From: Orbaceae bacterium ESL0727
Lineage (GTDB): Bacteria; Pseudomonadota; Gammaproteobacteria; Enterobacterales; Orbaceae
DNA: 64,000 bases
Direction: 5' to 3'
Assembly (NCBI GenBank): GCA_029433345.1
Contig: JAQTHY010000001.1
Coordinates: forward strand, 1,674,001-1,738,000
Shown here one piece after another: positions 12,220-57,530 of the stretch (position 1 is its first letter; each line of letters begins with the position of its first letter). Below the pieces are notes generated by a model. The model saw only the letters and a program-made list of their open reading frames with translations, was not told where the DNA came from and made no database searches. The position numbers were made by a program, and so were the translations under genes.

Positions 12220-12247
12220 ATGTTTCAGAACTACCCTACGTTTATGT
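12220..12247 (+). repeat. Dispersed 11-6-11 repeat, copy 1
   Basis: Left arm ATGTTTCAGAA, centre CTACCC, right arm TACGTTTATGT. Both arms are identical in all five copies in this window. It lies between the his promoter and doxX, flanked by TGA and CAAA. Confidence 0.85.
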
Positions 12248-12377
12248 CAAATTTTTGTGGATGAATAAAATAGCTATCATTATGAATTAAATTAGAAATA
12301 ATGTGAATGTCATCGATACTATCAAATAAGGCGCATCCACATTATTTATGAGAAGGAAAAGAGGAAGAGATCATCTG

Positions 12378-12782
12378 TTAATATTGACGATATTTCGCTG
12401 GTAATAAACTAAATTTCCCACCACCTAGTATCAGTAAACTGAGCGCTGTTACAGCCATAAATGCTGGATATTCCCAGCCACCGCCTGCATTACTGAATGA
12501 CCAACCATTACCTGAGTGAATAAAGCTAATGACAATCATCTGAATTGTTGCAAGAAGCGCAATCAAACGTGTCAAAATACCTAATAATAAGAATATCCCG
12601 CCACCGATTTCAAATAATATGGTCAGATAACCGACGAACCCTGGGAATCCCAATGATTCAAAAAACTGTGCTGTACCTGCCGGGGTAAAGACGAATAATT
12701 TAGTCAAGCCATGTGCTAAAAACATGACACCTAATGCAATACGTAAAAAAAGTGCCGAAAAATCTGCTTGATACTGTTTCAT
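12378..12782 (-). CDS. DoxX family membrane protein
   Basis: A 134-residue protein with four hydrophobic segments and the DoxX-type motif LRIALGVMFLAHGLTKL at the N-terminus, then LTILFEIGGGIFLLLGILTR. It resembles the YphA/YqjF group of inner-membrane proteins often linked to redox or electrophile stress, but no specific reaction is established. AAAGGA precedes the start codon. A tandem 14-bp repeat overlaps the leader, and a LysR regulator is divergent across 166 bp, so regulation by that protein is likely but inferred. Confidence 0.85.
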   Translation of the reverse strand: MKQYQADFSALFLRIALGVMFLAHGLTKLFVFTPAGTAQFFESLGFPGFVGYLTILFEIGGGIFLLLGILTRLIALLATIQMIVISFIHSGNGWSFSNAGGGWEYPAFMAVTALSLLILGGGKFSLLPAKYRQY

Positions 12783-12792
12783 TTTGTTTTCC

Positions 12793-12820
12793 TTTGATTT
12801 AAATAATTTGATTTAAATAA
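12793..12820. repeat. Perfect tandem 14-bp repeat before the doxX-like gene
   Basis: TTTGATTTAAATAA occurs twice without a spacer, starting 11 bases upstream of the doxX-like start codon and overlapping its ribosome site. Each unit resembles half of an FNR-type site (TTGAT) but lacks the ATCAA half. Confidence 0.8.
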
Positions 12821-12948
12821 ATAGTCTAGCTTGCTTGATAATTACTGTTCTTATCATAATCATTATTATTTTAGAGATAAAGAGAGTAAAATTTGATTAA
12901 TTGTCCCATTATTTGGAATAATAACAGATTTAATAGATGGATTTAATG

Positions 12949-13851
12949 ATGGCTAAATCGAATAAATTATTGGAAATGACAATATTTGCTGAAGTGGTGG
13001 AAAGCAATAGTTTTGTTGCCGCGGCGAATAAACTAAATATGTCTAAACAGGCGATTTCGCGCTATATAGCTGAATTGGAAGGGCGATTACAAGTCCGCCT
13101 TTTGCAACGAACCACACGGACAATGTCATTGACTTATGCTGGGCAAACATTTTATTTACAAGCAAAATCCATTATTAATGCATTAAATGAAGCCGAAAAT
13201 ATGGTAAGTTTAGAGCAAGCTCATCCTACCGGCCTATTACGCGTGAATGTGCCTGTCAGTTTTGGCATTTTACATTTGGCTAAAATATGGCAAAAATTTA
13301 TGGATAAATACCCTAATATTCAATTAGATATCACCTTATCTGATCATCTGGTCAATCTGTTAGAAGAAGGGTACGATTTTGTGGTTCGCATTGGTAATTT
13401 AGAAGATTCATCATTGGTCAGTCGTAAATTAACCTCGACACGCATTATTGCCGCAGCGTCACCTGACTATATTGCCCAATATGGTATGCCCAATCATCCC
13501 GACGAATTGCAAGCGCATAAAATTATTATGTATAGCCATTGGACAAAAAAAGATCAATGGGAATTTTGGAAAGATAAAATTTTTTACCCCACACATGTTA
13601 CCGCCAATGTGTATTGTAATAATGGTGATACCTGTCGGATGATGATGTTACAAGGCGGCGGAATATCATTACAACCTGATTTTATCATTGGTGATGATTT
13701 GCAATCTGGCCGTTTAGTTGAAGTTTTAACCAATTATCAAATTGATAATTTTAATATTTATGCCATCTATCCAAGTCGAAAATTATTACCATTACGAACC
13801 CGATTATTAATTGATTACTTAGCTGAACAATTACAAAATGGTTTTTGTTGA
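12949..13851 (+). CDS. LysR family transcriptional regulator
   Basis: A 300-residue LysR protein. The N-terminal helix-turn-helix reads FVAAANKLNMSKQAISRYIAELE, followed by LLQRTTRTMSLTYAGQTFY. The C-terminal effector domain includes GLLRVNVPVSFGILHLAKIW and RLVEVLTNY. It belongs to the large subgroup related to DmlR/YafC-type regulators; the effector is unknown. Three in-frame ATG codons lie at 12937, 12946 and 12949; only the last has GGA at seven-base spacing. It is divergent from the doxX-like gene, its probable target. Confidence 0.88.
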   Translation: MAKSNKLLEMTIFAEVVESNSFVAAANKLNMSKQAISRYIAELEGRLQVRLLQRTTRTMSLTYAGQTFYLQAKSIINALNEAENMVSLEQAHPTGLLRVNVPVSFGILHLAKIWQKFMDKYPNIQLDITLSDHLVNLLEEGYDFVVRIGNLEDSSLVSRKLTSTRIIAAASPDYIAQYGMPNHPDELQAHKIIMYSHWTKKDQWEFWKDKIFYPTHVTANVYCNNGDTCRMMMLQGGGISLQPDFIIGDDLQSGRLVEVLTNYQIDNFNIYAIYPSRKLLPLRTRLLIDYLAEQLQNGFC

Positions 13852-13982
13852 GGTAATAAAAGCATCCGTGTATTGTGTTATTTTTGTTGTAATATTCTGT
13901 TTTGTTTATAATTCTTAATGTTCATACAGAATCTTGCTAATTAGGTATGACATAATGCCTAATCCGATGATTATTTTGATAG

Positions 13983-14384
13983 TTATGCTTCATCAACGAG
14001 AAATAGCGGTGTACCGCTCGTCAACACTGCCTGCTGTAAACATTCTTTTTCTTGTTTATTAAGATGATGAATGCAGGCAACCACATAGCTACAGTTTTTA
14101 CTTAACAACGCTTTTTCGATAGTGGTCACCATATTTTCATCTTTCAAATTAGCAAGATGTACCACTTTTTGGCGATCGAGTCCGGCGATATCTAACCAGG
14201 CACGTTTTAGCATCGGGCGTTCGGAAAGCCAAAATTGCCATTTATTCTTTTTATTACAGGTTTGCAATAGACGTCGCTGTTGCTGTAGAACTTGTTGGAA
14301 AGGGGATTCGAAACCGACAGTGGTAAACTGTTCAGGTAAATGGTCAAATTGTGAATTTGCAAAAATTGGATGAAAGAGTGACAT
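13983..14384 (-). CDS. sulA: SOS cell-division inhibitor SulA
   Basis: SulA binds FtsZ and blocks septation during DNA damage. The 133-residue protein shares the SulA core: NKWQFWLSERPMLKRAWL, SGL/AGL-type turn, VVHLANL, then SYVVACIHHLNKQEKECLQ and a final strand TPLFLV. It is shorter than E. coli SulA (169). Both the N-terminal region and the C-terminal tail, which in E. coli carries the Lon recognition signal, are reduced or absent here. Two overlapping LexA-box matches lie 14-44 bases upstream, supporting both identity and SOS control. Confidence 0.88.
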   Translation of the reverse strand: MSLFHPIFANSQFDHLPEQFTTVGFESPFQQVLQQQRRLLQTCNKKNKWQFWLSERPMLKRAWLDIAGLDRQKVVHLANLKDENMVTTIEKALLSKNCSYVVACIHHLNKQEKECLQQAVLTSGTPLFLVDEA

Positions 14385-14395
14385 AATAACCTCTT

Positions 14396-14430
14396 AGCTG
14401 TATTGATATACAGTGTATATTAATACAGTA
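14396..14430 (-). promoter_or_regulatory. Overlapping LexA boxes of sulA
   Basis: A perfect CTG-N10-CAG core lies at 14398-14413. A second core at 14413-14428 reads GTG-N10-CAG on the plus strand, one mismatch from consensus. Centres are 15 bp apart, so two LexA dimers could occupy the promoter. Confidence 0.88.
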
Positions 14431-14576
14431 ATTTACTCTTGTAAACTCTTACCGCTTATTTATTTTAGATAGGATGATTTTATCTATAATGATTGGATCG
14501 CGCTGATTTTGTTAAAAATATAGGTTAGAAGAAAGTTAGGAAAAAAGGTTAGGGTAAAAAAGAATTAGGAAAAAAA

Positions 14577-14960
14577 TTAGAAAAGGGAACGTAGCCAGTG
14601 ATATGTTGCTATCCCGAGGAACGTCATCAATACCGATCCTATGACATGAATCAAAATCGTCGCGAATCCCCATGCCAGGCGACCTTCTTGTAAAAAATTA
14701 ACAATTTCTGCCGAAAAAGTGGAAAAAGTGGATAGTCCGCCACAAAATCCGGTAATAATCAGTAAACGCCATTCTGGTGAGAAGGACGTGTTATTAAAAA
14801 ACGCAATGGCAAAACCGATAATATAACCGGCAATTAAATTAGAGATCAGTGTTCCGAGTGGAATGGTAAAGGTAATGACATTTAATTTGAGTGATAAAAA
14901 CCAACGAAATAATCCCCCAAAAATAGAACCGATTGAAATGGCAAGAATAAGTTTTAACAT
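14577..14960 (-). CDS. crcB: Fluoride exporter CrcB/FluC
   Basis: Small dual-topology fluoride channel with four membrane helices. The 127-residue protein shows the family motifs [28 protein letters not shown] and [16 protein letters not shown], the last holding the ion-lining Phe/Thr/Ser residues. A GTG three codons earlier is possible, but the ATG at 14960 has AAGAG eight bases upstream. I find no fluoride riboswitch in the 200 bp upstream. A degenerate TTAG/A-rich repeat lies at its 3' end. Confidence 0.93.
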
Positions 14961-15097
14961 GACGATCACTCTTAATTTACAATAACGCTATAATTTATAA
15001 AATATTTATTGGTAACAATGCTTTTTTATCAATACAATTTAATGATGTTGAAGCGTGTTTACAGAAACAGGTTATTTTTAGTAACCTACATGAATTA

Positions 15098-15128
15098 TTG
15101 ACAAATCGCAACTCGATTGCGTTAGAAT
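15098..15128 (+). promoter_or_regulatory. Candidate ribE promoter
   Basis: A consensus -35 TTGACA (15098-15103) precedes TAGAAT (15123-15128), with a long 19-base spacer, 38 bp before the ribE start. No FMN riboswitch is visible in the short leader. Confidence 0.55.
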
Positions 15129-15165
15129 ATCAACCATTAAGCAAATCGAAATGAAGGTGGAAAGT

Positions 15166-15801
15166 ATGTTTACTGGGATTGTTCAAGGTGTTGGTCATAT
15201 TATTGAGATTACCGATCAAGATAAATTACGAAGCTATAAAGTACAATTACCCCCTAAATTAACTAACAAAATCGAAGTTGGGGCATCAATTGCTAATGAT
15301 GGTTGCTGTCTAACCGTTACCAAACATGAAGGCGATTGGGTGGCGTTTGATATTATGCAAGAAACACTCGCCTTGACCACCTTAGGGACAAAAAAACTTG
15401 GCGATAAGGTCAATATTGAACGTAGTGCTAAATATGGTGATGAAATTGGTGGTCATGTGATGTCAGGACATATCTCGTGTGTCGCCACAATTACCGCCAT
15501 CCAAAAAACCGCCACCAATTGTCAAATGCAATTAACCTTACCCGCGCAATTTATGAAATATGTGCTATATAAAGGTTTTATTGGTGTTGATGGTGCTAGC
15601 CTAACGGTTGGTCAAATCAAGGATAATCATTTTGATATTCATCTAATTCCTGAAACATTAGCGCTGACCACGTTAGATGAAAAAAAGGTAGGGGATCAGG
15701 TCAATATCGAAATAGATTCACAAACAAGAGCCATTGTAGATACGGTTGAACGTGTACTAGCATCACGCGACAATAACGTTACAACAACATCACAACAATA
15801 A
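15166..15801 (+). CDS. ribE: Riboflavin synthase alpha subunit
   Basis: Converts two 6,7-dimethyl-8-ribityllumazines to riboflavin (gene called ribC in E. coli). The 211-residue protein has the expected duplicated beta-barrel: MFTGIVQGVG with ANDGCCLTVT and GDKVNIERSAKYGDEIGGHVMSGH in the first half, then GVDGASLTVG and GDQVNIEIDSQTRAIVDTVER in the second. The frame opens at 15151, but the ATG at 15166 has GGTGG five bases before it and gives the conserved N-terminus. Confidence 0.97.
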   Translation: MFTGIVQGVGHIIEITDQDKLRSYKVQLPPKLTNKIEVGASIANDGCCLTVTKHEGDWVAFDIMQETLALTTLGTKKLGDKVNIERSAKYGDEIGGHVMSGHISCVATITAIQKTATNCQMQLTLPAQFMKYVLYKGFIGVDGASLTVGQIKDNHFDIHLIPETLALTTLDEKKVGDQVNIEIDSQTRAIVDTVERVLASRDNNVTTTSQQ

Positions 15802-15838
15802 ATAGCGAAGAATGATTCTTTTTGCTTAGCATAACGCA

Positions 15839-15864
15839 ATGCCGCAAGTTGTAGCCTGCGGCAT
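15839..15864. terminator. Hairpin between convergent ribE and ydgA
   Basis: ATGCCGCA and its complement form an 8-bp stem with a 10-base loop between converging genes. No clear T-run follows, so termination is only plausible. Confidence 0.4.
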
Positions 15865-15881
15865 GAAAGGAATAAAATCCA

Positions 15882-17519
15882 TTAAAAGTTTTTAAAAAAA
15901 TCTTCTTTTTTGATTTTTGTATCATTCACTTTTACATCACTATCACCTTTTATATAATCTACATCTAAATAAAATCCAGCAACATTATTTTTCTGGAACT
16001 GGATGATAGGTGAATTATTGAAAAATAGTCTTCCCATCATCTGTACATTTTTATCCATTTTATCTAACTGTTCAGGAGTGACGTCTGTTGACGACGGATC
16101 GGTTGCTTGTGCGAGTGTTTGGGCAACCACTAAAGATGGCATATCCAATTTAACTTTGAGTGCATCTAGATTATCAATATTCAGATCTTCTCTGCTTTTT
16201 ACATTTGATAATCCTAATAAAACATTGGCCTCGATATCACCCGCTGTATTATGCCACGTCGTTTTATTCGAAATACTACTAATTCGAATAGGCAAATTAT
16301 GATTATCTATACGATTGTTTATATTGTTGAGATCTAATCCGCGATAATCAATATCAAGCGATCCATTACCTAAGTTTTGTTTACCAAGGAATAACGATCC
16401 AATAGTACTTTTAAATGAACCATTTAAGAGATTCGTTGCTTGCGTCATATTTTTTTGGTCAATAACCACCTGATTAATAATCGCATTATAATTACCATCT
16501 TGCTTTTCAAGACTATCTTTCAGGGTGATTTTATCGATAGTGGTATGTAAGTCGATATTGCCATTTTGGTAAGCAATCGTACCTTGCGATTTAATATTGT
16601 TTAGCGCAATATCGAGTTGATCAATAGCACTACTTAATGAGGTATTAAAATCATCAATACTGAATTGGTAATCAAAACCAGTGACATCATTATTTTTTTG
16701 TGAGGATATACGCAAATTGTTGATATCGAGAGAAGGCATTGTGGATTCAGGTGCAGTATAAGAGAGTTTATCCAATTTCATATTTAACAAAGGAACGTCA
16801 AAATCCTTATCTGCCTTAAACAAAAATTCGCCTGCCGAAACAAGCAAATTATTACCATGTTCGTCATGACTATTAATTGCCTGATTGATCATTTTAAGTG
16901 TTAAATATTGGCGATAACTCATTCCAGCATACGCAGTAATAAATGATTTATTACCTGCTAACTGCCAAAGTTGTGGTGATGCTTTTTCAGTCATGGCATA
17001 TTCAACCCAAGCCATTTGTGGCGCAAATTCGCCTTTTGCCAGTGCCGCTAAAGGGAAAGGACCGTGATGAATGGTGATATCATCATCAAAGAGAGTAATA
17101 GGGCGCGCCGTGAGATCTTTTTCGGGTTCCTGGTTCGTTGCGTTGTTATCATCTGTGGTGATAAGTGCTGAGTTATCTTCACCAAAAGAGTTTTGTGATG
17201 AATTGGCAATTTCTTCATGGGAAGGCACTTTTTCGTCATCAAACTTTTTAGCACTATTTTGATTATCGACATAATTGGCTTTTTTAGAAGATAACGTAAT
17301 GGTGAGATGTAATTTAGTCGAAAAAATATTTTTTTGATAATCATGATAATTGATTGCCACATCCAGATCTTGTTCACCATTATTTATCATGTCAGTAATG
17401 TGGGCAAATTCATTATCAATATTGTTTTCAATCATATTACCTGTATACCACGCTGTACCAATATAACCGGCCGCTAATATTGCGATTATAACACCTGAGG
17501 CAATAATACTTTTTTTCAT
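15882..17519 (-). CDS. ydgA: YdgA family protein (DUF945)
   Basis: A 545-residue envelope protein with one N-terminal membrane anchor or signal (MKKSIIASGVIIAILAAGYIGTAWYTG). It aligns with E. coli YdgA by this N-terminus, HGPFPLAAL near residue 155 and the all-beta body rich in paired strands; the C-terminus (VKVNDTKIKKEDFFKNF) also fits. It carries an Asn/Asp/Ser-rich insertion around residues 85-135 absent from the 502-residue E. coli protein. The molecular function of the family is not established. Confidence 0.85.
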   Translation of the reverse strand: MKKSIIASGVIIAILAAGYIGTAWYTGNMIENNIDNEFAHITDMINNGEQDLDVAINYHDYQKNIFSTKLHLTITLSSKKANYVDNQNSAKKFDDEKVPSHEEIANSSQNSFGEDNSALITTDDNNATNQEPEKDLTARPITLFDDDITIHHGPFPLAALAKGEFAPQMAWVEYAMTEKASPQLWQLAGNKSFITAYAGMSYRQYLTLKMINQAINSHDEHGNNLLVSAGEFLFKADKDFDVPLLNMKLDKLSYTAPESTMPSLDINNLRISSQKNNDVTGFDYQFSIDDFNTSLSSAIDQLDIALNNIKSQGTIAYQNGNIDLHTTIDKITLKDSLEKQDGNYNAIINQVVIDQKNMTQATNLLNGSFKSTIGSLFLGKQNLGNGSLDIDYRGLDLNNINNRIDNHNLPIRISSISNKTTWHNTAGDIEANVLLGLSNVKSREDLNIDNLDALKVKLDMPSLVVAQTLAQATDPSSTDVTPEQLDKMDKNVQMMGRLFFNNSPIIQFQKNNVAGFYLDVDYIKGDSDVKVNDTKIKKEDFFKNF

Positions 17520-17557
17520 TATGATTCCTTTATATAATTTATATAGTTAGTTTTATT

Positions 17558-20500
17558 TTACTGTTCTTGATGTTCGGCAAAAGTGATTAACAGTTGCTTG
17601 ATATAATTGATTCGTTCATTGCGAGGTAAATCCGTAGTCAGCAATTTTAATCTATTTTGCCCCTCTAAACGATATTTTTTAGGTTCCTTTTGGATGATTT
17701 GTATTAAATAATCAACCGAGATACGATTTTTAGTCCCAAACTCAATAAAACCACCTTTTTCGCCAAATTCAATCTTAGTCATACCTAATTGACTTGCATG
17801 ATAGCGGATTTCGGTTGTCTCTAATAAAAAAATGGTGGCGTCTGGCAGAGGCCCAAAACGATCGCGCATTTCCACTTTTATATCAGTCAGTTCTTCGATA
17901 TGTTGGATACTGGCGATACGTTTATAGAGTGATAATCGGACATTGACATCAGGAATAAAATCATCTGGAATCAATGTCGGTAAACGGAGTTCGATATCGG
18001 TTTGCTGACTGGTTAATAATGATTCTAAGGTCGGTTCTTTCCCTTCTTGTAACGATTTAACTGCATCTTCTAACAGTTCGATATAAAGATTAAAACCGAT
18101 AGATTCAATCTGACCGCTTTGATCACTACCCAGCAATTCACCGGCACCACGGATTTCGAGATCATGGGTTGCTAACGCAAATCCTGCACCAAGATCTTCC
18201 AATGAAGCAATCGCTTCTAACCGTTTTTGCGCATCTTTACTCAATAATTTCGGGTGCGGTGTTAATAAATAGGCATAAGCTTGGTGATACGAACGGCCAA
18301 TTCGCCCACGTAATTGATGTAATTGTGCTAAACCAAATTTATCTGCCCGTTCAATAATAATGGTATTGGCATTAGGAATATCGATCCCCGTTTCGATAAT
18401 GGTGGTACAGACTAATAAATTACAACGTTGGTGATGGAAATCATTCATGATTCTTTCTAGATCACGTTCATGCATCTGTCCATGGGCAACGGCAAGACGT
18501 GCTTCGGGCACCAATTCGGCAAGATGATCGCGAACTTTTTCGATTGTTGCTACATCATTATGTAGATAATAGACTTGTCCACCACGCAAGATCTCACGCA
18601 AAATCGCTTCACGGATCACTAAATCATCATATTCACGCACAAAGGTTTTGACCGCTAAACGGCGAGCCGGTGGCGTTGCAATAATCGAAAAATCACGCAT
18701 ACCGCTCATCGCCATGTTTAAAGTACGTGGAATTGGCGTTGCGGTCAGTGTCAAAATATCAATATTAGCCCGTAATGCTTTAATACGCTCTTTTTGGCGA
18801 ACGCCAAAACGGTGCTCTTCATCGACAATTAATAGCCCCAGATCACGCCATTTGACCTCTTCTTGCAGTAATTTATGCGTACCGATAACAATATCAACTT
18901 TGCCTTCTTTGAGATCATCAATAATCGCTTGTTGCTGTTTAGCGGTCTTAAAACGCGACAGGCTTTCAATGCGAATAGGCCAATTTGCAAATCGATCGCA
19001 GAAGTTTTCGTAATGTTGTTCAGCTAGAAGTGTAGTTGGGACCAAAACAGCAGCCTGTTTGTGGTTGATAACCGATAAAAATGCAGCACGAATAGCCACT
19101 TCTGTTTTACCAAAACCGACATCACCACACACTAAACGATCCATCGCTTGTGGTGAACACATATCACTAATCACAGCGCCAATTGCTTTTTGCTGATCAT
19201 CGGTCTCTTCGTAAGGGAATCCTTGACAAAATAGTTCATATTGTTCACGATCTTGCTTGAACGCAAATCCCGGTTTACTCTCGCGTTCAGCATAAATATC
19301 TAATAATTCGGCAGCCACATCACGCACTTTTTCGGCCGCTTTTTGGCGTGCTTTACTCCAACTATCGGTACCTAATTTATTAAGTGTTACATTTTCTGCA
19401 TCACCACCCGAATAACGACTAATTAGATTTAGTGATGAAACGGGAACATAGAGCTTGGTATCATTAGCATAGAGGAGCACAAGATATTCTGCCTCAATTC
19501 CACCGGTTTCGAGAGTCGTTAAACCGGCATATTTACCGACACCATGTTCTAAATGTACCACGGGCTTCCCAGGCGTCAGCTCTGCTAAACTGCGAATCAA
19601 GAGATCGGTATTAATTGCTTGTTTATTTTCTTTCCGACGGCGAATAATACGACGACCAAAGAGCTCATTTTCAGTAATAAATGCAAAGGGATCTTGCTGT
19701 TCGTTACCGGCTAAATCGATTCCCCCTTGACTGACGAAACCTTGCTCGCTGGCACCAATCATCAAAAAGTAGCGTTCATCTTTATTGGTTAGTGCATTGA
19801 GATCCGCCAATTGCGGTAAAAATTTAGGACGAATCGATATCCGTGCTAAGACATCTTGTAATGCTTCTCGACGGCCTTCTGATTCGACTGAAAAGATGAT
19901 CTTTCCTGATTCATCATCGGCCAAAAAATGATCAGTAAATTGTTGGAATTGCCCAAATGGATCTTTTTGCTGAATCTGAATGGCAAGATCTGGCAATGGC
20001 GAAAAAGGTAAATTAATTTGCGTTGCCGATTCTTTTTGTGTTGTCGTTGACAAAACGACACGGGGATAATGTTTGAAATGAGCAAATAATTCGTCGATAC
20101 GTAACCAGATATGGTTTGGTGCTAACAGCGGTCGTAAAGGATCGACTTTTCGACTGGCGAAACGTTGTTCAATGTCGTGCCAATATTTCATCGCAAATTG
20201 CTCAATATTTTGGGTATTGAGAATTAATGTATTGTCAGGAAAATAGGTAAACAACGGGGTAAGTGGCTCGGTAAAAAAGAGTGCTTGCCAATATTCAATC
20301 CCCGTCGGCAAAATGCTTTTACTCACTTGTTGATAAAGGCTTTCAGCTTCTAAACGAACAGGAAAGCTTTCACGCCAATTTTTGCGAAATAATTCAATCG
20401 CATTTTTATCAAATGGAAATTCATGCGCGGGGAGTAGTTCGATCTCTTTAATATCGGCTAAGGTTCGTTGCGTTTCAACATCAAAGGTGCGAATCGTGTC

Positions 20501-21091: not shown

Positions 21092-21332
21092 ATAAAGTTA
21101 TGGACATGCAAAGATTCGTTAATTTAATAAAAAATTAGTGCTGATTATAACGTAAAAGCAAGGGTGTTTGCTACCGCTGTTTAATCCTGTATGATATGGC
21201 GTCTATAATTTATCAGCCATCACAATTGATCGCCAATGTGTGATTCATGGAAATGCGAAAGTTATTATGTGATAAAAGCCAGCTTATGATTTATTCATAA
21301 TAACTGTATAATTATTCATCAAATTTATTTGA

Positions 21333-21360
21333 ATGTTTCAGAATAGGTATACGTTTATGT
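21333..21360 (+). repeat. Dispersed 11-6-11 repeat, copy 2, overlapping the lolC start
   Basis: Arms ATGTTTCAGAA and TACGTTTATGT flank TAGGTA. The ATG inside the right arm (21357-21359) is the chosen lolC start codon. Read on the minus strand the copy lies upstream of mfd. Confidence 0.85.
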
Positions 21361-37624: not shown

Positions 37625-37682
37625 TGCGTACTTGAATCTATTAATCAATATTTGACATAAACGTATAGTAGTTCTGAAACAT
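37625..37682 (-). repeat. Dispersed 11-6-11 repeat, copy 3, with extended 3' block
   Basis: The core at 37655-37682 reads, on the minus strand, ATGTTTCAGAA, CTACTA, TACGTTTATGT. A further 11-bp block TGCGTACTTGA (plus strand, 37625-37635) lies 19 bases from the core. Copy 4 has the same block at the same distance. The rest of the rhlE-yigM gap (37683-37838) is AT-rich without recognised features. Confidence 0.85.
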
Positions 37683-46472: not shown

Positions 46473-46529
46473 ATGACGATAGTTATTTTTCGTTTCTTTT
46501 TTAGTTTTTCAAAAATACTTTATTTTTGA
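46473..46529 (+). CDS. pheM: pheST leader peptide PheM
   Basis: An 18-residue peptide MTIVIFRFFFSFSKILYF with six phenylalanines, very like E. coli PheM (IFRFFFYFS). AGAG lies nine bases before the ATG. Its stop codon overlaps GAGGC (46528-46532), which can pair with GCCTC in the terminator's left arm (46562-46566) to form an antiterminator. Phe-tRNA shortage would stall the ribosome and allow pheST transcription. Confidence 0.94.
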   Translation: MTIVIFRFFFSFSKILYF

Positions 46530-46556
46530 GGCAAAATGAAAAACGAAAAATAGTTC

Positions 46557-46584
46557 AAAAGGCCTCTACTAAGAGGCCTTTTTG
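46557..46584 (+). terminator. pheST attenuator terminator
   Basis: AAAAGGCCTCT and its exact complement form an 11-bp stem with loop ACTA and a T-run (TTTTTG), 28 bp after pheM and 120 bp before pheS. Confidence 0.94.
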
Positions 46585-46649
46585 TTATTGTACTAAATGA
46601 ATCATTAACATATAAATTAAGTAACTTGTTAATTAAAAAAGCAAAATAG

Positions 46650-47687
<1,038 letters not shown>

Positions 47688-47704
47688 TATCTGGAGACCA
47701 AAAC

Positions 47705-50092: not shown

Positions 50093-50096
50093 TAAT

Positions 50097-50390
50097 ATGA
50101 CACTAACTAAAGCTGATATTGCAGATCGTCTTGCTGAAAAATTTAATCTTGATCGCCAAGAGGCCAAGGTCCTCGTGGAACTTTTTTTTGAAGAAATCCG
50201 TGTTGCCCTAGAAAAAGGGGAACCCGTTAAACTATCTGGATTTGGTAATTTTACTATTCGAGATAAAAATTCTCGTCCTGGACGTAACCCTAAAACAGGT
50301 GAAAGCGTTGATATTTCAGCTCGCCGCGTGGTTACATTCCGCCCTGGAATTAAATTCCGAGAAAGAGTTGAACAAAATTTAGCATTATAA
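50097..50390 (+). CDS. ihfA: Integration host factor alpha subunit
   Basis: DNA-bending nucleoid protein that pairs with IhfB. The 97-residue protein begins [20 protein letters not shown] and holds the minor-groove-intercalating arm motif [19 protein letters not shown]. It starts four bases after the pheT stop, suggesting coupling, as in E. coli. Confidence 0.98.
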
Positions 50391-50420
50391 TCTGCACAGC
50401 ATTGATTAATTGGAAAGCAT

Positions 50421-50447
50421 AAATAGGCGTCATAAAGGCGCTTATTT
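50421..50447 (+). terminator. Hairpin after ihfA
   Basis: An 11-bp stem with two G-U wobbles (left arm AAATAGGCGTC, right arm GGCGCTTATTT) and loop ATAAA lies 30 bases past the ihfA stop. The T content after it is low. Confidence 0.6.
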
Positions 50448-50460
50448 ATCAAATAAAAAG

Positions 50461-50489
50461 TTGTATTTTAGTTGTTATTCAAGCATAAT
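50461..50489 (+). promoter_or_regulatory. SRP RNA promoter
   Basis: TTGTAT and CATAAT separated by 17 bases, ending 14 bases before the start of the 4.5S RNA. Confidence 0.65.
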
Positions 50490-50503
50490 AGCCCCTCCTC
50501 AAT

Positions 50504-50616
50504 GGAGGCTCTATGGGTTCTCTTGCAACATTAGCTTGCTCACCCGGTCAGATCCGGAAGGAAGCAGCCAAAGTAAGTTTTATGTGTGTGGGATGTAGCT
50601 GATAGGGTCTCCGCCC
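50504..50616 (+). ncRNA. ffs: 4.5S signal recognition particle RNA
   Basis: About 113 nt, with pairing ends GGAGGCTCTATGGG and GGGTCTCCGCCC. It contains the universally conserved Ffh-binding region: GGTCAGATCCGGAAGGAAGC with the GGAA tetraloop, then AGCC and GGGATGTAGCTG. The sequence tracks E. coli 4.5S RNA closely. Exact ends are estimated from that comparison. Confidence 0.96.
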
Positions 50617-50805
50617 AAAAATCTCTATTTTTATCTAAAATTCTTTTTTATTCCATCAAGATAAAATTATCTATTTATATAGTTTATAACAATCGCTTAT
50701 AATGACAACCCTTAACTATTTTCTAGCATGATGTATGCCTTTTGGCCTTTAGCTATCAGCGTTTCGCTGTTACGCCAATAATGGCTATAGAGAAAGGAAT
50801 TTAGT

Positions 50806-50863
50806 TGCGTACTTGAGTTCATCTATAAAAATTATACATAAACGTATATATGTTCTGAAACAT
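50806..50863 (-). repeat. Dispersed 11-6-11 repeat, copy 4, with extended 3' block
   Basis: The core at 50836-50863 reads, on the minus strand, ATGTTTCAGAA, CATATA, TACGTTTATGT. The block TGCGTACTTGA (plus strand, 50806-50816) lies 19 bases away, as in copy 3. It lies in the 313-bp gap between ffs and rlhA; the rest of that gap shows no gene. Confidence 0.85.
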
Positions 50864-50929
50864 CGCATTAAATAAACGGCATTTATTTCCGTTTAAATCA
50901 TCATTAATTTGTATTTATGAGATAAAAAT

Positions 50930-52957
50930 ATGTCATCAATGACAACAATAAAACAGACTAATCAATTAGAATTACTGAGTCCAGCTAAAGATATCGATAT
51001 CGCTAAACAAGCTATTTTGCATGGTGCCGATGCGGTTTATATTGGCGGCCCACAATTTGGTGCCCGTCATAATGCCGGTAATTCGGTTGCCGATATTGCC
51101 AAATTAGTTGAATTTGCACATCGCTATTATGCAAAAGTGTTTGTCACCTTAAATACTATTTTACATGATAATGAATTAGAATCGGCCCATCAGTTAATCT
51201 GGCAATTATACGATGCAGGGATTGATGCATTAATTGTACAAGATATGGGCATTTTAGAGATGGATTTACCGCCGCTTGATCTCCATGCGAGTACACAAAC
51301 AGATATTAGAACAGTTGAAAAAGCCAAGTTTTTATCGGATGTCGGTTTTTCGCAAATCGTCTTAGCACGGGAATTAAATTTAGCGCAAATAAAGCAAATT
51401 GCTAATCAAGTCGATGCTAAGTTAGAGTTTTTTGTGCATGGTGCCCTTTGTGTGGCATTTTCGGGGCAATGCTATATCTCGCATGCGCAAACAGGACGTA
51501 GTGCGAATAGGGGGGATTGTTCTCAAGCCTGCCGTTTGCCTTATACGTTAACCGATGAGCAAGGTCACGTGATTGCTTATGAAAAGCATCTATTGTCGAT
51601 CAAAGATAATAATCAGTCAGCTAATTTAGTTGAACTTATTGATGCCGGCATTCGTTCATTTAAGATCGAAGGGCGATATAAAGATATGGCATATGTAAAG
51701 AATATTACCACTTTTTACCGTCAAAAATTAGATACGATTTTAGAACAGCATCCTGAATTTACGCCTGCATCTAGTGGTAAAACGGAGTACTTTTTTACCG
51801 CTAATCCTGATAAAACTTTTCATCGTAGCCAAACTGACTATTTCATTCATGGACGACAGATGGATATCGGTGCTTTTGATTCACCTAAATTTATTGGTTT
51901 ACAGATTGGCGAGATTACCAAAGTGACGCCGCAATACCTTGATATAAAATCAAAAGAAACCTTGACCAATGGCGATGGACTCAATGTATTAATTAAGCGG
52001 GATGTCATTGGCTTTCGTGCCGATAAAGTTGAAAAACTTACCGATCACCTTTATCGCATTTACCCTAATGAATTTGCCTCTAATGAACAGATTAAACAGA
52101 TCGCTAAATTACGATTACCCCATCCGATTAACCGTAATTTAGATCATAATTGGCAACTCGATTTACAAAAAGAGTCCAGTTCTAGGCGAATTTTAGTTGA
52201 TTTTACTGTTAAGATGACCAACGATAACATTCAATTAACCGCAAAAAGCGAAGAGGGGATTAACGTAACGATTGCATTAAATAATACCTTTGAGGTAGCA
52301 AAGCAGCCAGAGAAAGTGCAAAGTGTCATTATTGATAATATTACCAAACTTGGCCAAACTATTTATGTAGCTCGTTCAGTTAATATTGAAAAACAAGATA
52401 ATCTCTATTTCATGCCAGCGAGTCGATTAAATCAATTAAGACGCGATGTAATCGATAAACTTGATAGTGAACGTGTTGCACAATATAAGAGGGTAACGCC
52501 CAAAGGTATCAGCAATCCAGCACCGATTTATCCGCAAGAACAGCTCACTTATCTGGCTAATGTTTATAATCAAAAAGCACGTGATTTTTACCATCGTTAC
52601 GGTGTCACGTTAATTGAGCCAGCGTATGAAGCACATACCGTGAAAGATGATACGCCGCTGATGATTACCAAACACTGTTTGCGGTTTGCTTTTAATTTAT
52701 GCCCTAAACAAGCAAAAGGTATACAAGGTGTCAAAACAAAAATGGCCCCCATGCAACTCATCCACCAGAATGAAAATCATGAAAAAGAAATTCTCACCTT
52801 AAAATTTAATTGTCGAGATTGTGAAATGCAAGTCTTGGGCAAGATCAAAAATCACGTTTTGAAAATGCCTTTACCCGGTAGTGAAATTATTTTTCTCCAA
52901 AAACAAGCTGCCCCTGACGATGTTAGCAACCAGAAGAATAATAAAGAGCATGGTTAA
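50930..52957 (+). CDS. rlhA: 23S rRNA 5-hydroxycytidine C2501 synthase RlhA (U32 family)
   Basis: Peptidase-U32-family protein (YdcP) that hydroxylates C2501 in 23S rRNA. The 675-residue protein has LELLSPAKDIDIAKQAILHG, YIGGPQFGARHNAGNS, HASTQTDIRTVEKAKFL and the Cys-rich signature CVAFSGQCYISH...RGDCSQACRLPY. The C-terminal ITKHCLRFAFNLCPKQ with CRDCEM completes the set of cysteines. The assignment to RlhA, rather than the related RlhA-like UbiU/V or YegQ proteins, rests on length and C-terminal match to YdcP. Confidence 0.92.
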   Translation: MSSMTTIKQTNQLELLSPAKDIDIAKQAILHGADAVYIGGPQFGARHNAGNSVADIAKLVEFAHRYYAKVFVTLNTILHDNELESAHQLIWQLYDAGIDALIVQDMGILEMDLPPLDLHASTQTDIRTVEKAKFLSDVGFSQIVLARELNLAQIKQIANQVDAKLEFFVHGALCVAFSGQCYISHAQTGRSANRGDCSQACRLPYTLTDEQGHVIAYEKHLLSIKDNNQSANLVELIDAGIRSFKIEGRYKDMAYVKNITTFYRQKLDTILEQHPEFTPASSGKTEYFFTANPDKTFHRSQTDYFIHGRQMDIGAFDSPKFIGLQIGEITKVTPQYLDIKSKETLTNGDGLNVLIKRDVIGFRADKVEKLTDHLYRIYPNEFASNEQIKQIAKLRLPHPINRNLDHNWQLDLQKESSSRRILVDFTVKMTNDNIQLTAKSEEGINVTIALNNTFEVAKQPEKVQSVIIDNITKLGQTIYVARSVNIEKQDNLYFMPASRLNQLRRDVIDKLDSERVAQYKRVTPKGISNPAPIYPQEQLTYLANVYNQKARDFYHRYGVTLIEPAYEAHTVKDDTPLMITKHCLRFAFNLCPKQAKGIQGVKTKMAPMQLIHQNENHEKEILTLKFNCRDCEMQVLGKIKNHVLKMPLPGSEIIFLQKQAAPDDVSNQKNNKEHG

Positions 52958-52990
52958 CGACGTTTATCATCATCACATTTATCCGGTTAT

Positions 52991-53929
52991 TTAGTAAGGC
53001 AGGGCAGTGATAGTCGGCAATTTTTTGTCAATAACTGCTCCTGTTAATTCGGATAAGCGATGGATGTTATGTTTTTGACAGTAATCTTCTAAATCGTGAA
53101 TCATATTTGTCATAGTAGAAGGCTGAATAAAATTGGCCGTCCCCACTTGTACAGCTGTCGATCCTGCTAAGAAATATTCGATGACATCTTCAAAAGTAGT
53201 GATCCCGCCACAACCAATAACCGGTATAGAGAGATGCTTATAACATTGATAGACCATGCGGATCATGATCGGTTTGATTGCTGGGCCTGATAATCCACCC
53301 ATAATATTGCCTAGTTTAGGGCGACGGGTAGTAATATCAATGGCCATGCCTAATAGAGTATTGCCGACAATAATAGCATCGGCACCTTCAGCTTCGGCAG
53401 CTTGAGCAACACTTACAATATCACTGGTATTAGGTGTTAATTTTACCCATAATGGTAAATGCGTTGCCGCACGTAATGCTTTGACTACTTTGGACGTAGA
53501 ATTTGCTTGCATGGCAAAGGCTTTTCCATCCGCTTCGATATTAGGGCACGAGATATTGGCTTCAATGCAAGCAATGCCTTTGACGGTGTCGAGTTGTTTT
53601 GCTATTAGACCAAAATCAGTAGCGGTATTAGCCGAAATACTGGCAATAAGTGGCGAAGAATATTGTTGATAATAAGGTACCGTATGTGAGATATAGTAAT
53701 CAATTCCTTTACTTGGAATCCCAATAGCATTAAGCATTGCATTGGGTAATTCACAAGCGCGTGGAGTAGGGTTACCGGCACGTTTATCGAGCGTAAATGT
53801 TTTAGTCACAATCGCACCGAGCGCATTAAAATCAATAATCGCTGCTAATTCCTTATCAAAGGTGCCAGAAGCTGGCATGATTGGATTTTTGAGTGTGAAG
53901 CCATTAATATTGACTGATAAATCGATCAT
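52991..53929 (-). CDS. pyrDB: Dihydroorotate dehydrogenase, class 1B catalytic subunit
   Basis: FMN enzyme that oxidises dihydroorotate in pyrimidine synthesis. The 312-residue protein has NPIMPASGTFDKE at the start, substrate loop LPNAMLNAIGIPSKG, the class 1 catalytic cysteine in ANISCPN (residue 128; class 2 enzymes have Ser here), VKLTPNTSD and the phosphate site GCGGITT. It overlaps pyrK by 4 bp, so the two act as the NAD-linked type 1B complex. This type is typical of Firmicutes; most gammaproteobacteria use the quinone-linked class 2 PyrD. Confidence 0.93.
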   Translation of the reverse strand: MIDLSVNINGFTLKNPIMPASGTFDKELAAIIDFNALGAIVTKTFTLDKRAGNPTPRACELPNAMLNAIGIPSKGIDYYISHTVPYYQQYSSPLIASISANTATDFGLIAKQLDTVKGIACIEANISCPNIEADGKAFAMQANSTSKVVKALRAATHLPLWVKLTPNTSDIVSVAQAAEAEGADAIIVGNTLLGMAIDITTRRPKLGNIMGGLSGPAIKPIMIRMVYQCYKHLSIPVIGCGGITTFEDVIEYFLAGSTAVQVGTANFIQPSTMTNMIHDLEDYCQKHNIHRLSELTGAVIDKKLPTITALPY

Positions 53930-54732
53930 GCGATAAATTCCTTAATATCAAATACGGGTCCATCAACACACACACGTTTATTACGTAATTCGGTTTGCGT
54001 ACCTGTCGTAACGTTAAACGGTTTGACACAGCAATAACACATGCCAAGACCACACGCCATATGTTGTTCTAAGGCAACTTGACCATCAAGATTAAATTCC
54101 ATCGCAATTCTTCGCAGTAATGTTGTGATCCGCGTTGAACCACAAGTATAAACAGCATCAAACGGCATAATTTTATGTTGTTTAATAATTAATTTTTCGA
54201 CATTTTCAATCTTACTTGAGTGATTGCTGTCAATAACTTCTATCACATTTGCATGAATATTATGAAAACGATGTTGTGACATAAGGCTATTTTGGTCCCG
54301 AGCGCTTAAAATTGCCGTAACCTTAATCTTTTTCGCTACCGCAGCTTCAGCTAGCGGGGCGAGGGTAGCTAACCCCACACCACGCCCGACAACTAAAATG
54401 TGTTGATAATGATCTTTAATGGTAAATCCTTTACCTAAAGGCCCTAAAATAGGCAATGTATCACCGGTTTGCAATTTTGCTAATGTGCGTGTGCCAGAAC
54501 CGACAACTTTATATAAAAATTCGATTGTACCAGAAACAGGATCTGCAAAATACGTACTCATCGGGCGACGAAAAAAAGGTTTATCAGCTTCAGATTGTGG
54601 GCATAGTAAATTGAAAAATTGCCCAGGTTCAACAGTCAATGCTGGCGTGTTGACCTTGACAATCAAATGTTTATATTCATCATTGACCCATTCATTACTT
54701 ATAATAATGGAAAGACTATCTATTGCAGCCAT
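53926..54732 (-). CDS. pyrK: Dihydroorotate dehydrogenase electron-transfer subunit PyrK
   Basis: FAD and [2Fe-2S] protein that passes electrons from PyrDB to NAD. The 268-residue protein has an N-terminal FAD domain with FFRRPMST (flavin site, residue 53 on), an NAD-binding domain with VVGRGVGLATLAPLAE, and a C-terminal iron-sulfur site with Cys 227, 232, 235 and 255 (MACGLGMCYCCVKP, then KRVCVDGPVF). It precedes pyrDB in one operon adjacent to the dif region. Confidence 0.93.
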   Translation of the reverse strand: MAAIDSLSIIISNEWVNDEYKHLIVKVNTPALTVEPGQFFNLLCPQSEADKPFFRRPMSTYFADPVSGTIEFLYKVVGSGTRTLAKLQTGDTLPILGPLGKGFTIKDHYQHILVVGRGVGLATLAPLAEAAVAKKIKVTAILSARDQNSLMSQHRFHNIHANVIEVIDSNHSSKIENVEKLIIKQHKIMPFDAVYTCGSTRITTLLRRIAMEFNLDGQVALEQHMACGLGMCYCCVKPFNVTTGTQTELRNKRVCVDGPVFDIKEFIA

Positions 54733-55144
54733 AAATTTATATTAACTCGTATTCTTCAGTTATTGAATGATAATAATGGAGATATGCCAAACTACATGCG
54801 GCAATAGCGATTACAAAGCTCCAACATAAAATGACAGAAATAAATAATCTAGGACAAACAATAACAAAATCATCTATAGTTAATTTTTTCTTATTATTAA
54901 TAGCTAGGCTATTTCTGCAGGAAGAAGATTATAAATATAATACGACTTGATGAGTAATTATATTTTTTAATTTAATTATGAAAAAAATAACTATTTCTTT
55001 TAAAGTACTTATCAATGGGATCTATTTTAGATAACTTCATAATAAGTAGAATTAATGATAATTCAATGTGTTAAAAATAATTGTATTTTGATGATCGTGA
55101 ATTATTAACTTGGAATTTGTCTAAATTGCTTTTAATGATACTTT

Positions 55145-55172
55145 GGTTCGCATAATGTATATTATGTTAAAT
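55145..55172 (+). other. dif: dif chromosome-dimer resolution site
   Basis: A 28-bp XerCD target: XerC arm GGTTCGCATAA, centre TGTATA, XerD arm TTATGTTAAAT. It matches my recollection of E. coli dif at 27 of 28 positions (T for G at position 4). Its position in a long non-coding gap, with matS sites and polarised KOPS around it, supports function. Confidence 0.96.
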
Positions 55173-55200
55173 AATAGTTATATTGATAATAAGACCAACA

Positions 55201-55335
55201 ATGCACTATTTATGGAGACTTTTTATCATCTGCAATATCGAACAAATTATCGAGCAACTGACAGCAAATCAGCGCCCCGCTATTCTTTTATCTAAACGTC
55301 GGCTAAACTTCAATTACATTTCTCATCTTTTTTAA
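55201..55335 (+). CDS. Small open reading frame of 44 codons beside dif
   Basis: Starts ATG-CAC-TAT-TTA and encodes CNIEQIIEQLTANQRP in its middle, with a hydrophilic, basic end. No ribosome site precedes it and I do not recognise the sequence. It could be a relic, a leader frame or chance. Confidence 0.2.
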   Translation: MHYLWRLFIICNIEQIIEQLTANQRPAILLSKRRLNFNYISHLF

Positions 55336-55434
55336 TTAATAAACTAGAAAAATTGCTAAGGGTTAATTGTGTTTTTCTGGAAAGATGGTAATCTTATCCA
55401 TCACTATTAATAATTAACCATTTTCGATGTAAAC

Positions 55435-56139
55435 ATGCAAGATATCCGTAAACCTTTACGTTCTAGTAGCTATTCTATTTCCTGTGAATTATGCAGTTTG
55501 GGTCCTATTTGTACACCAATATTATTAAATGATGCATTATTAGAACGAAAAAAAGCGTTTCCTAAAGATCATGTATTTGTTACGAAAGATACCCCATGCA
55601 CCCATTTTTATATTGTGAATACTGGTGCACTCAAAACATACGTTACCGATCAAGATGGCAATGAACAAATTAATGGCTTTTATTTACCTGGTGATGTGAT
55701 TGGATTAGATTCTATCTACACTAAAAAATATAATAATAATCTAAAAGCGTTAACCGATACTTTAGTGTGTGAATTACATTATGATGAATTTATTGCTTTA
55801 ATGGATACCAATAAACAGGTCAGAGATTTAGTATTTAACTTATTAAGTCGTGATATTTGCAATTATCAAAAACTTATACTATTTTTTTCGCAAAAGAAAG
55901 CAGATTCTCGATTGGCCATTTTTATCTATTCACTTTATTCTCGTTATGAGCAACATGGCCATTCATCCCTTAATATAAAACTTTCAATGAGTCGCGCAGA
56001 TATTGCTAATTATTTAGGGTTAACAATTGAAACTGTGAGCCGAATTTTTTCTAAATTCCAAGAACTAGGCATTTTATCCGTACAAGGTAAATATATTTTT
56101 ATTAAAGACTTAGATGCATTAATCAAATTAGGTAATTAA
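55435..56139 (+). CDS. fnr: Fumarate/nitrate reduction regulator FNR
   Basis: Oxygen-sensing Crp/Fnr regulator that holds a [4Fe-4S] cluster when anaerobic. The 234-residue protein has Cys 17, 20 and 26 near the N-terminus and Cys 112, matching the four E. coli ligands (20, 23, 29, 122). Seven residues between the third and fourth ligand are missing relative to E. coli, in the stretch before ERKK. The helix-turn-helix IANYLGLTIETVSRIFSKFQ keeps the E..SR residues that read TTGAT half sites. The start lacks a strong ribosome site. Confidence 0.94.
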   Translation: MQDIRKPLRSSSYSISCELCSLGPICTPILLNDALLERKKAFPKDHVFVTKDTPCTHFYIVNTGALKTYVTDQDGNEQINGFYLPGDVIGLDSIYTKKYNNNLKALTDTLVCELHYDEFIALMDTNKQVRDLVFNLLSRDICNYQKLILFFSQKKADSRLAIFIYSLYSRYEQHGHSSLNIKLSMSRADIANYLGLTIETVSRIFSKFQELGILSVQGKYIFIKDLDALIKLGN

Positions 56140-56186
56140 TTTATCTTAATTTTAAATATGTAAAATTTAATGTAAGGTTTATATAT

Positions 56187-57263
56187 ATGACAAGTTTTAA
56201 AAAAACTTTTTTGGTCACCGCATTATCAATTTTTTCTATACCATCATTATATGCTGCACAACAGCTGACTTCAGAACAGGCTGAAAAGATTCAATCTTTT
56301 AAAGAAATATCTGTGCGTGGTGCGTTTTATACTGATAACGACTATGTAACCGCCATATCTCATGCTGCCGATAAAGAAGGTGCCGCATCATTTTATATCA
56401 CGACCACCAATATTAGCCCATCGAATGATACGTTACGTATTGTGTATGCCAATTTATATAAAGCAAATGCGCCAGAAGTAACCGAAAAAGCAGTTTCGTT
56501 ACGTAAATTTGAAGGTGTGTATGAATATCCTAGAAAGACAGCATTAAGACTCGAACCGTTTGATATTGTCCGCATTCGTGGCTATTTCCCAACCGAAACA
56601 GATGTCAATCAAGCTATTGCCAAAGAAGCCGCTGCCAAAGGTGCTTATGCCTTTTTTATTGATCATCGTGCCGATATCGGTAGTAATTTGCAATTAACAG
56701 CCTATTTATTTAAAAAAGATGCAGCAGAACGTAAATTGCAACCTGACAATGCGATCCCTTATGATTCAGAAGCTGGACAACAAGCCCTAGCTCAAGGTGG
56801 TGAAGCAGCAATGCAAGTTGAACGCCCAGGCTACTACTCCCCTTCTTCATTCAATGAACAATTTTATGCAGAAAAATTTAATAATAAAGTTATCGACAAA
56901 CCAGCCACTGCAGAAAATACGGCTAAAACTGCCGTAACTCCAACCGCTGATGCTGCACCTGTGACAGCTACTGCTGGCGCAACAACTAAAGCTGCAGCTA
57001 ATGTACCAGAACAACGCTCTACACGTTACACTGTAACTATTGCTGATGGACGCAAAATCGAAGAATTAAATGATGCTACAGCCGCTAAAATGGTTCCTTT
57101 CGATACTGTAAAATTTAGAGGTTATTACGTCACAGATCAGGAAATTTCGTATAATGCTGGTAAACGTGCCATTGAAAAAGGTGCAAAATATTATCACATT
57201 GCAAGAATTTCCCAAGATACCAGTGGCCCTAATGTGACTGTATTTGTTGATTTATATCGATAA
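56187..57263 (+). CDS. ydgH: YdgH-like periplasmic protein with three YhcN/BhsA (DUF1471) domains
   Basis: A 358-residue secreted protein with signal peptide (FLVTALSIFSIPSLYAA). Three related domains follow, near residues 35-110, 120-180 and 280-357, each with an (I/V)(S/R)RG(A/Y) strand (ISVRGAFYT, VRIRGYFPT, VKFRGYYVT) and an A-x-K-G-A helix end. An Ala/Thr-rich linker (residues 240-275) separates domains 2 and 3. E. coli YdgH has the same three-domain layout. Function is linked to stress and envelope but not defined. Confidence 0.88.
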   Translation: MTSFKKTFLVTALSIFSIPSLYAAQQLTSEQAEKIQSFKEISVRGAFYTDNDYVTAISHAADKEGAASFYITTTNISPSNDTLRIVYANLYKANAPEVTEKAVSLRKFEGVYEYPRKTALRLEPFDIVRIRGYFPTETDVNQAIAKEAAAKGAYAFFIDHRADIGSNLQLTAYLFKKDAAERKLQPDNAIPYDSEAGQQALAQGGEAAMQVERPGYYSPSSFNEQFYAEKFNNKVIDKPATAENTAKTAVTPTADAAPVTATAGATTKAAANVPEQRSTRYTVTIADGRKIEELNDATAAKMVPFDTVKFRGYYVTDQEISYNAGKRAIEKGAKYYHIARISQDTSGPNVTVFVDLYR

Positions 57264-57502
57264 AAAAAGATAACACTATCTATTGTCACGATTTATCGCT
57301 TCTTACGATAAGTAAAAAACGAAAGTCAGATGACAAAACATAGCAGACATAACATGCATAAAACAGAGAGTCATAGCGTAAAAGCGATATGACTCTTCTT
57401 CCCTACTCTGAATATCATTGAACAAAATCACCCGTGACGAAAGTAATCTTGCAAGAGAAAGAAAACACGCTATTGCCAATTTCTTTGCTGAAAATATTTT
57501 GA

Positions 57503-57530
57503 ATGTTTCAGAACTATACTACGTTTATGT
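57503..57530 (+). repeat. Dispersed 11-6-11 repeat, copy 5
   Basis: Arms ATGTTTCAGAA and TACGTTTATGT flank CTATAC, between the convergent ydgH and hrpA genes. The remaining 356-bp gap (57264-57619) has no gene; a loose GACTCT/AGAGTC palindrome lies near 57368-57396. Confidence 0.85.

Follow-up and report, generated by a model that had tools for sequence, protein, structure and literature searches.

A dispersed two-part repeat in Orbaceae bacterium ESL0727 that looks like a recognition sequence with species-specific spellings

What keeps two short sequence arms invariant, around a centre that varies, at scattered places on a bacterial chromosome? In the stretch of ESL0727 DNA analysed here (the window; 64,000 nucleotides), an earlier note had described five copies of a 28-bp repeat with two fixed 11-bp arms and a 6-bp centre. 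All five were recovered exactly, with the positions and centres given there (Table 1), and none occurred in 100 dinucleotide shuffles. The whole genome was searched with both arms exact and 79 copies were obtained, against 0 with the reversed-pattern control; the repeat is not restricted to five unconserved places. Allowing up to three arm mismatches gave 158 copies in the whole genome, and a spelling-tolerant pattern gave 141.

Table 1. Copies of the repeat and the dif-like site in the window.
Feature	Position	Strand	Remarks
Site copy 1	12220..12247	+	Centre CTACCC; extended conserved flanks approximately 12212-12256
Site copy 2	21333..21360	+	Centre TAGGTA; includes the probable ATG (21357) of a lolC-like gene
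Site copy 3	37655..37682	-	Centre CTACTA; neighbour genes divergent with respect to the site
Site copy 4	50836..50863	-	Centre CATATA; right flank ATAAT
Site copy 5	57503..57530	+	Centre CTATAC; convergent neighbour genes
Dif-like Xer site TTCGCATAATGTATATTATGTTAAAT	55147..55172	+	Differs at 1 position from the E. coli core used; 0 in 100 shuffles

The conserved stretch extended over approximately 45 bp, its left side reading roughly TTTATTTGR and its right side CAAATTTTT. Beyond it the flanks of most copies were unrelated, so the core is maintained while its surroundings are free. The 79 exact copies comprised 78 distinct 68-bp windows, a single pair being identical over 68 bp. Their centres were CTATAC (16), CTACTA (15), CTACCC (13), CATATA (6), TCACTA (5) and 14 rarer spellings. 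Of the inexact own copies, 79 in all, 68 were among the matches listed; in these the string TTTCAGA carried 2 changes in 476 cells and positions 18-28 carried 32 in 748. The earlier reading of invariant arms and a variable centre as sequence-specific recognition was judged right, and the repeat looks like a recognition sequence with species dialects.

The sites are mostly intergenic: 73 of the 79 exact copies lay outside called open reading frames (ORFs) and 6 overlapped one. Copy 1, for example, was located between hisG (10944-11858, minus strand) and a DoxX-like gene (12378-12782, minus strand). Flanking genes, relative to the site, were codirectional in 40 cases, convergent in 20 and divergent in 13. 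The single gene orientation proposed from copies 1 to 4 consequently does not hold genome-wide, and the convergent neighbours reported for copy 5 were confirmed. Copy 2 had been placed upstream of mfd (the earlier note's naming); in fact its neighbours are mfd and, on the other side, a divergent lolC-like gene whose probable start codon it contains (LolC was assigned by NCBIfam on the G012 homologue). Sites occurred in both orientations and replichore bias was absent. Exact and one-mismatch copies, among the matches listed, were spaced more evenly than a uniform distribution over the genome, a null not limited to intergenic DNA (CV 0.787 vs 0.989, P = 0.0026); for the exact copies alone the evenness was not significant (P = 0.35).

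Three other roles were considered and rejected. For a replication-strand sign, the one-strand runs seen in the 77 exact copies on contig C1 (P = 0.003) vanished on inclusion of the 49 one-mismatch copies among the matches listed (P = 0.22), and the absence of replichore bias also opposes it. For an RNA hairpin, eight copies folded as single strands, in both strands, gave weak and inconsistent structures, and gene orientation was unbiased. For a coding role, spellings with the CTAGTA centre (4 copies) contained an in-frame stop when read by eye from the site's own ATG, in this frame only.

An Xer-type core had been the leading suggestion, from the 11-6-11 layout shared with dif/pdif sites and an XerD-like string on one flank. 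This reading was not supported: a separate dif-like site is present in the window (Table 1), the arms form no dyad, and several genomes of the genus have a 27-bp layout instead of 28. The dif-like site is distinct from the multi-copy repeat, whose spacing and sequence vary between species, and the stretch that carries it aligns in some genus genomes (G022, G027, G034). Scored as an inverted repeat, the arms matched at 4 of 11 positions and those of dif at 6 of 11. In an extended consensus of five species the dyad did not exceed shuffles; the dyad test is weak alone, because dif itself did not beat them either (P = 0.28). The XerD-like extension, ATTTGACATAA, was by eye out of register for an 11-6-11 layout and was absent from the consensuses of four other species.

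The spelling-tolerant pattern was found in 30-141 copies in 13 of 35 genomes of the genus, and at most once per genome in nine genomes of four other genera. Genomes with the 28-bp form held 14-141 copies. Two bipartite layouts were searched, and with each of them sixteen of the 35 had four or fewer sites; apart from a 12-mer in G027, these sixteen yielded no dialect. The dialects are clade-specific at genome scale, as in DNA-uptake sequences of the USS/DUS type. Twelve genus genomes, selected as pattern matches, carried a site at the position of copy 2.

Two sister species, G009 and G010, have sites at shared places with different spellings. Seven of the 28 G010 sites were alignable across the G009 stretches examined, and all seven had a G009 site, spelled CCTGAG in G010 and CAGGAG in G009, with no insertion at the site (five of five in an initial subset). 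The remaining 21 were not alignable to G009, and 16 of these were located in two gene clusters. In the reverse direction, ten alignable G009 sites corresponded in G010 to five CTGAG sites, one that was still site-like and four that were degraded. The 16-mer core of G010 occurred in 400 kb in 32 exact copies, two with one mismatch and one with two, followed by background. Such a bimodal distribution is not what a neutrally decaying repeat would give.

In 400 kb each of G010 and G027, the top-ranking 12-mers, low-complexity ones aside, came from the motif. G027 had a short related motif, TGYTTTAGGGTT, in 74 copies per 400 kb (reversed control, 0). These included 3 close inverted pairs and, as close direct neighbours, 16 pairs, so the count is inflated by local repeats. 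Of 11 orthologous gaps, 4 contained the G027 motif, each time in matching orientation (approximately 1.1 expected in either orientation). It was found, again in the same orientation, in the gaps orthologous to copies 1 and 4 and was not found in that orthologous to copy 5. At the place of copy 2, G027 had a site spelled ATGTTTTAGGG.

Our tentative best reading, with a probability of roughly 0.4, is a signal for the uptake of self-DNA that works like USS or DUS. The 28-mers would be chromosomal recognition sites for a fast-evolving sequence-specific protein, hence their species-own spelling, partly at common intergenic places. The reader would most likely be the DNA-uptake machinery of natural transformation, which would recognise the left arm as the core and make accessory contacts with the right arm and the AT-rich flanks. 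DNA with the current spelling would be preferentially imported and recombined back, maintaining the sites, and a shift in receptor specificity would lead to their re-spelling. We infer the protein, the uptake and this drive from the core kept amid free flanks, its bimodal mismatches, the constancy of TTTCAGA and the respelled orthologous sites. Also counted in favour were over-representation on both strands as in USS/DUS (79 copies against 0 in the control; top 12-mers in G010 and G027), the occurrence in both orientations, the lack of replichore bias, the even spacing, the G027 motif and ComEC. Top-frequency k-mers are the usual route to finding uptake sequences. ComEC was uninterrupted in 34 of the 35 genus genomes, which is compatible with uptake and not specific to it; it proves little because E. 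coli has ComEC too. A crude scan for prepilin motifs, covering 864 kb, showed no pilin cluster.

Against uptake, the own genome holds only about 140-160 copies, far under the thousands of DUS. The 28-bp form, unlike USS/DUS, is nearly absent from genes in the own genome and in G010 (0 of 28 sites in ORFs). Copies in the hundreds to thousands, many of them intragenic, were not seen: the own genome had 141-158, and 25 of the 74 G027 12-mers were in ORFs. Several copies also bracket modules, arrays and breakpoints, which uptake alone would not predict. To our knowledge, the families with uptake signals are two, Neisseriaceae and Pasteurellaceae. Were the sites uptake signals, a further lineage would join them with signals of its own, whose dialects turn over from one close species to the next, and the joint change of uptake specificity and genomic marks would become directly testable.

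According to the available text of PMC3630211, the DUS of Neisseriaceae are present in thousands of copies and have species dialects, one of which (wadDUS) changes length by one base. The present repeat is likewise highly over-represented on both strands, with species dialects and a one-base length change (27 vs 28 bp). The DUS described there are short and many are intragenic; here the unit is two-part, approximately 28 bp long and present in 14-141 copies, and in the genomes checked nearly all copies of the 28-bp form were intergenic, the G027 12-mer being an exception. The USS of Pasteurellaceae have 9-bp cores, AAGTGCGGT or ACAAGCGGT, with two dialects in the whole family, as given in the available text of PMC1626085. 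They share with the repeat a core with AT-rich flanking segments and clade-specific variants, but their cores are unrelated to it in sequence and their dialects in the family are only two. Among the papers listed by a literature search, none reported uptake sequences or this repeat in Gilliamella or Orbaceae in its title or the start of its abstract, which does not prove absence, and the available text of PMC12616744 does not mention Gilliamella or Orb-.

Some copies flank repeated modules and gene arrays, and the main rival reading therefore has the sites targeted by a site-specific recombinase or another module-shuffling system, comparable to integron, pdif-module or dRS3/NIME boundaries. 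Modules between directly repeated sites would be cut out, duplicated and exchanged, and crossover would take place in the variable centre. We consider this rather unlikely, although several observations point to it. A 1.9-kb module lies between two CTATAC sites and has a homologue elsewhere, likewise between two CTATAC sites, and a 349-bp module is site-bracketed in two places. Sites are found inside tandem arrays in G011 (238-284 bp) and G017 (approximately 980 bp). Sixteen of the 28 G010 sites are in two clusters of paralogous units, and one gene from these clusters is a homologue, at 35% identity, of the gene in the own module. Cassettes of an integron attC system would be site-bounded and moved by an integrase; modules bounded by sites exist here. 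At one locus G012-G017 homology stops 15 bp or less past the site. However, the arms form no dyad, own copies are mostly solitary, the seven G010-G009 pairs align through the site with no rearrangement, and a site at each unit border is also expected from tandem duplication via ordinary recombination. The dRS3/NIME elements of neisseriae have invariant arms, a variable centre, intergenic positions and modules between copies, as here; dRS3 is a 20-bp inverted repeat, whereas the own arms form no dyad. If the sites are such boundaries, they point to a system shuffling a gene family of unknown kind. Improbable in our estimation is a combination in which a bipartite intergenic self-recognition mark would be rewritten in concert genome-wide at a dialect change, possibly by templated overwriting or recombination and not by site-by-site mutation, and would also delimit shuffling surface-protein-like modules. 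With either uptake or module boundaries, the species in which the repeat is numerous have a conserved sign, suitable for annotation, at approximately 30-160 intergenic places per genome.

Binding of a fast-evolving chromosome-organising or regulatory protein (a domain boundary, or REP/BIME-like), with no link to uptake, would suit sites that are intergenic, fairly evenly spread, indifferent to orientation and strict in their core. Chromosome-organising sites of known kinds keep their sequence across wide clades, in contrast to a spelling that here differs between species approximately 91% identical at lolC, and we regard such a role as improbable too. Slightly more doubtful still is a dispersed non-autonomous MITE-like element without host function. 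The mobile-element scars proposed earlier fit the G012 copies alone: of 20 examined, 17 shared, to the left or right of the site or on both sides, more than 250 bp of IS-derived sequence. The consensus built from 14 copies describes an element roughly 800 bp long, whose ends look inverted by eye and which retains a transposase remnant (rve_3, E = 2.4e-4, below the curated cut-off). A defined element with terminal repeats does not surround every copy; most own and G009 copies have only about 45 bp in common, and core mismatches form no decay series. The seven sites orthologous across species, all respelled in the same way, also speak against such an element. Change in place, as in USS/DUS, would leave no inserted copies: the seven alignable G010 sites showed no insertion, 21 of the 28 were not alignable, and the G012 copies ride on an IS-derived element.

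Carriage by phages was also considered and rejected, the own spelling being found in 0 stretches of viral contigs; a looser pattern gave 71, taken as chance. A scan of named genomes, from which own-genome records were possibly excluded, returned seven stretches in unrelated organisms, which were likewise taken as chance.

The own genome, which holds the window, comprised 2.15 Mb in two contigs, with the window corresponding to C1:1674001-1738000. The five copies listed in the earlier note were all recovered at exactly the positions it gave. A pattern search with both arms exact returned 79 copies genome-wide, and 158 when up to 3 mismatches were allowed across the 22 arm bases; the same pattern read backwards, used as a control, gave 0 matches. 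All 79 exact sites were stacked with 60-bp flanks. The conserved stretch ran from approximately -9 to approximately +37, and farther flanks were unrelated in most copies. Centres were of 19 kinds with very unequal abundances (78 distinct windows). Gene context was judged from script-called ORFs: 73/79 exact sites were intergenic and 6 overlapped an ORF, two of these ORFs being 70-77 aa long and the other four beginning no more than about 40 bp from the site. No preferred direction relative to genes was found for the 79 sites. One site lies in frame with a lolC-like ORF, so the true start codon of this ORF is uncertain.

The repeat family is genus-wide and occurs in dialects (species-specific spellings). 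The own spelling was matched exactly in only 1 of 35 genus genomes and, with up to 3 mismatches, in 23. A spelling-tolerant pattern was run over 44 family genomes (see table); the remaining 21 genus genomes gave ≤5 copies each, nine genomes from four other genera ≤1 each, and the reversed control ≤2 per genome on either strand. The 21 low genomes were then searched with a layout one base shorter. The other 16 of these contained only 0-4 copies, leaving many genus genomes for which a dialect was not found.

Copy numbers of the repeat family and other features noted
Feature	Location	Detail
Site in frame with lolC-like ORF	window 21333-21360	
dif-like Xer site	window 55147-55172	differs from the tested E. 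coli core at one base
Variable protein family	G010:C13:717001-737000 (L209); own L017/L018 and L052	
Spelling-tolerant pattern	44 family genomes	own 141; G010 130; G011 111; G028 103; G026 96; G009 73; G001 65; G013 64; G034 41; G033 38; G012 33; G029 31; G019 30; G023 14
One-base-shorter layout	21 low genomes	G017 32; G007 22; G024 19; G020 12; G006 11

The left arm is the core of the site. Among the matches listed (68 of 79 inexact own copies, under-representing the most mismatched), TTTCAGA was altered in 2 of 476 cells, compared with 32 of 748 for positions 18-28. Within 400 kb of G010, a 16-mer round the left arm occurred 32 times exactly, twice with one mismatch and once with two, followed by background only. 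The right part was looser (10, 11, 11 and 3 copies at 0, 1, 2 and 3 mismatches). Neutral decay is disfavoured because it would give a graded series, not flanks lost beside a perfect core.

Orthologous sites were compared between G009 and G010, whose lolC genes are 91% identical. Alignments to the fetched G009 stretches spanned 7/28 G010 sites, the other 21 not being alignable. G009 had a site at the corresponding place in 7/7; 5 passed the pattern and 2 departed from it at a single right-arm base. The same difference, CAGGAG in G009 and CCTGAG in G010, was present in all 7 pairs (seen first in 5/5). From the G009 side, 10/16 sites had spanning alignments. Five were of AGGAG type, all CTGAG in G010; the other five were of AGGT/AGGC types, of which one was still site-like in G010 and four were degraded. 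Thus, one class differs as a body, whereas another decays in G010 or newly arose in G009. The lolC site was present in the window and in 12 genomes, these having been fetched for matching the pattern.

In G027, the best match to one stretch of the window, the bipartite form was absent under both the spelling-tolerant pattern and the shorter layout. The commonest non-low-complexity 12-mer in 400 kb of this genome was TGTTTTAGGGTT. With one base free it occurred 74 times, 25 within ORFs, forming 3 close inverted and 16 close direct-neighbour pairs. Of 11 gaps corresponding by orthology to own sites, 4 contained it, each time in the matching orientation (approximately 1.1 expected when either orientation is counted); lolC is among these, with the motif in exactly the place of the own site.

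The earlier proposal of a Xer-type core fails, as the window holds a separate dif-like site and site spacing varies among genomes. A dyad test gave it no support, although this test is weak, dif itself not exceeding shuffles. GC skew of sampled loci placed the terminus near the window holding the dif-like site. Some copies do flank repeated modules: an own 1.9-kb module has a CTATAC site at each end and a homologue elsewhere, G017 has tandem units bounded by sites, and 16/28 G010 sites lie within two clusters of paralogous units (spacings 0.46-6.1 kb). A function as a recombination or module boundary is a less likely alternative to the reading below, and one in chromosome organisation is unlikely. 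A decaying mobile element fits neither the bimodal core nor the differently spelled orthologous sites; a functionless mobile repeat is likewise unlikely.

What remains is that a protein may recognise the site, with specificity shifting between close species. Among known systems, uptake sequences behave in this way; eight dialects have been described in Neisseriaceae, one with a one-base insertion (PMC3630211), and two in Pasteurellaceae (PMC1626085). Unlike that class, the own repeat avoids genes and differs in copy number, and it was therefore not filed as a member. The most likely reading is that the repeat works like uptake sequences (probability roughly 0.4).

An own module gene and one G010-cluster gene were homologous (35% identity, E 8e-60), and the tested module and cluster proteins matched no Pfam or NCBIfam family above cut-off. 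These proteins make up a variable family with homologues in two species, encoded in site-bounded modules and clusters; those tested measured 395-558 aa. G011 has tandem arrays (L182, L194, L196) whose units are 238-284 bp long and carry one site apiece. In G012 (40 copies at ≤3 mismatches), 17/20 fetched copies shared long flanks of an IS-derived element. Read by eye, L150 and the G012 copies L145-L164 contain an IS that has TGTAGGAAAAC.. at its ends; the 7-bp sequence TCTAAAC, adjoining a site, looks like its target duplication, and derivatives of this IS carry the site inside. At one locus, beside a gene named lpdA-like by eye, the G012 and G017 sequences share 97% identity up to the site and become unrelated approximately 15 bp past it. 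Downstream of an lpdA-like gene, G012 (L160) has Rhs-like repeat units (by eye), with many consecutive matches in G023 (C38, C50, C58-C61) and partial ones in G019; the corresponding place in G017 holds two copies of a 118-aa gene that belongs to no known family.
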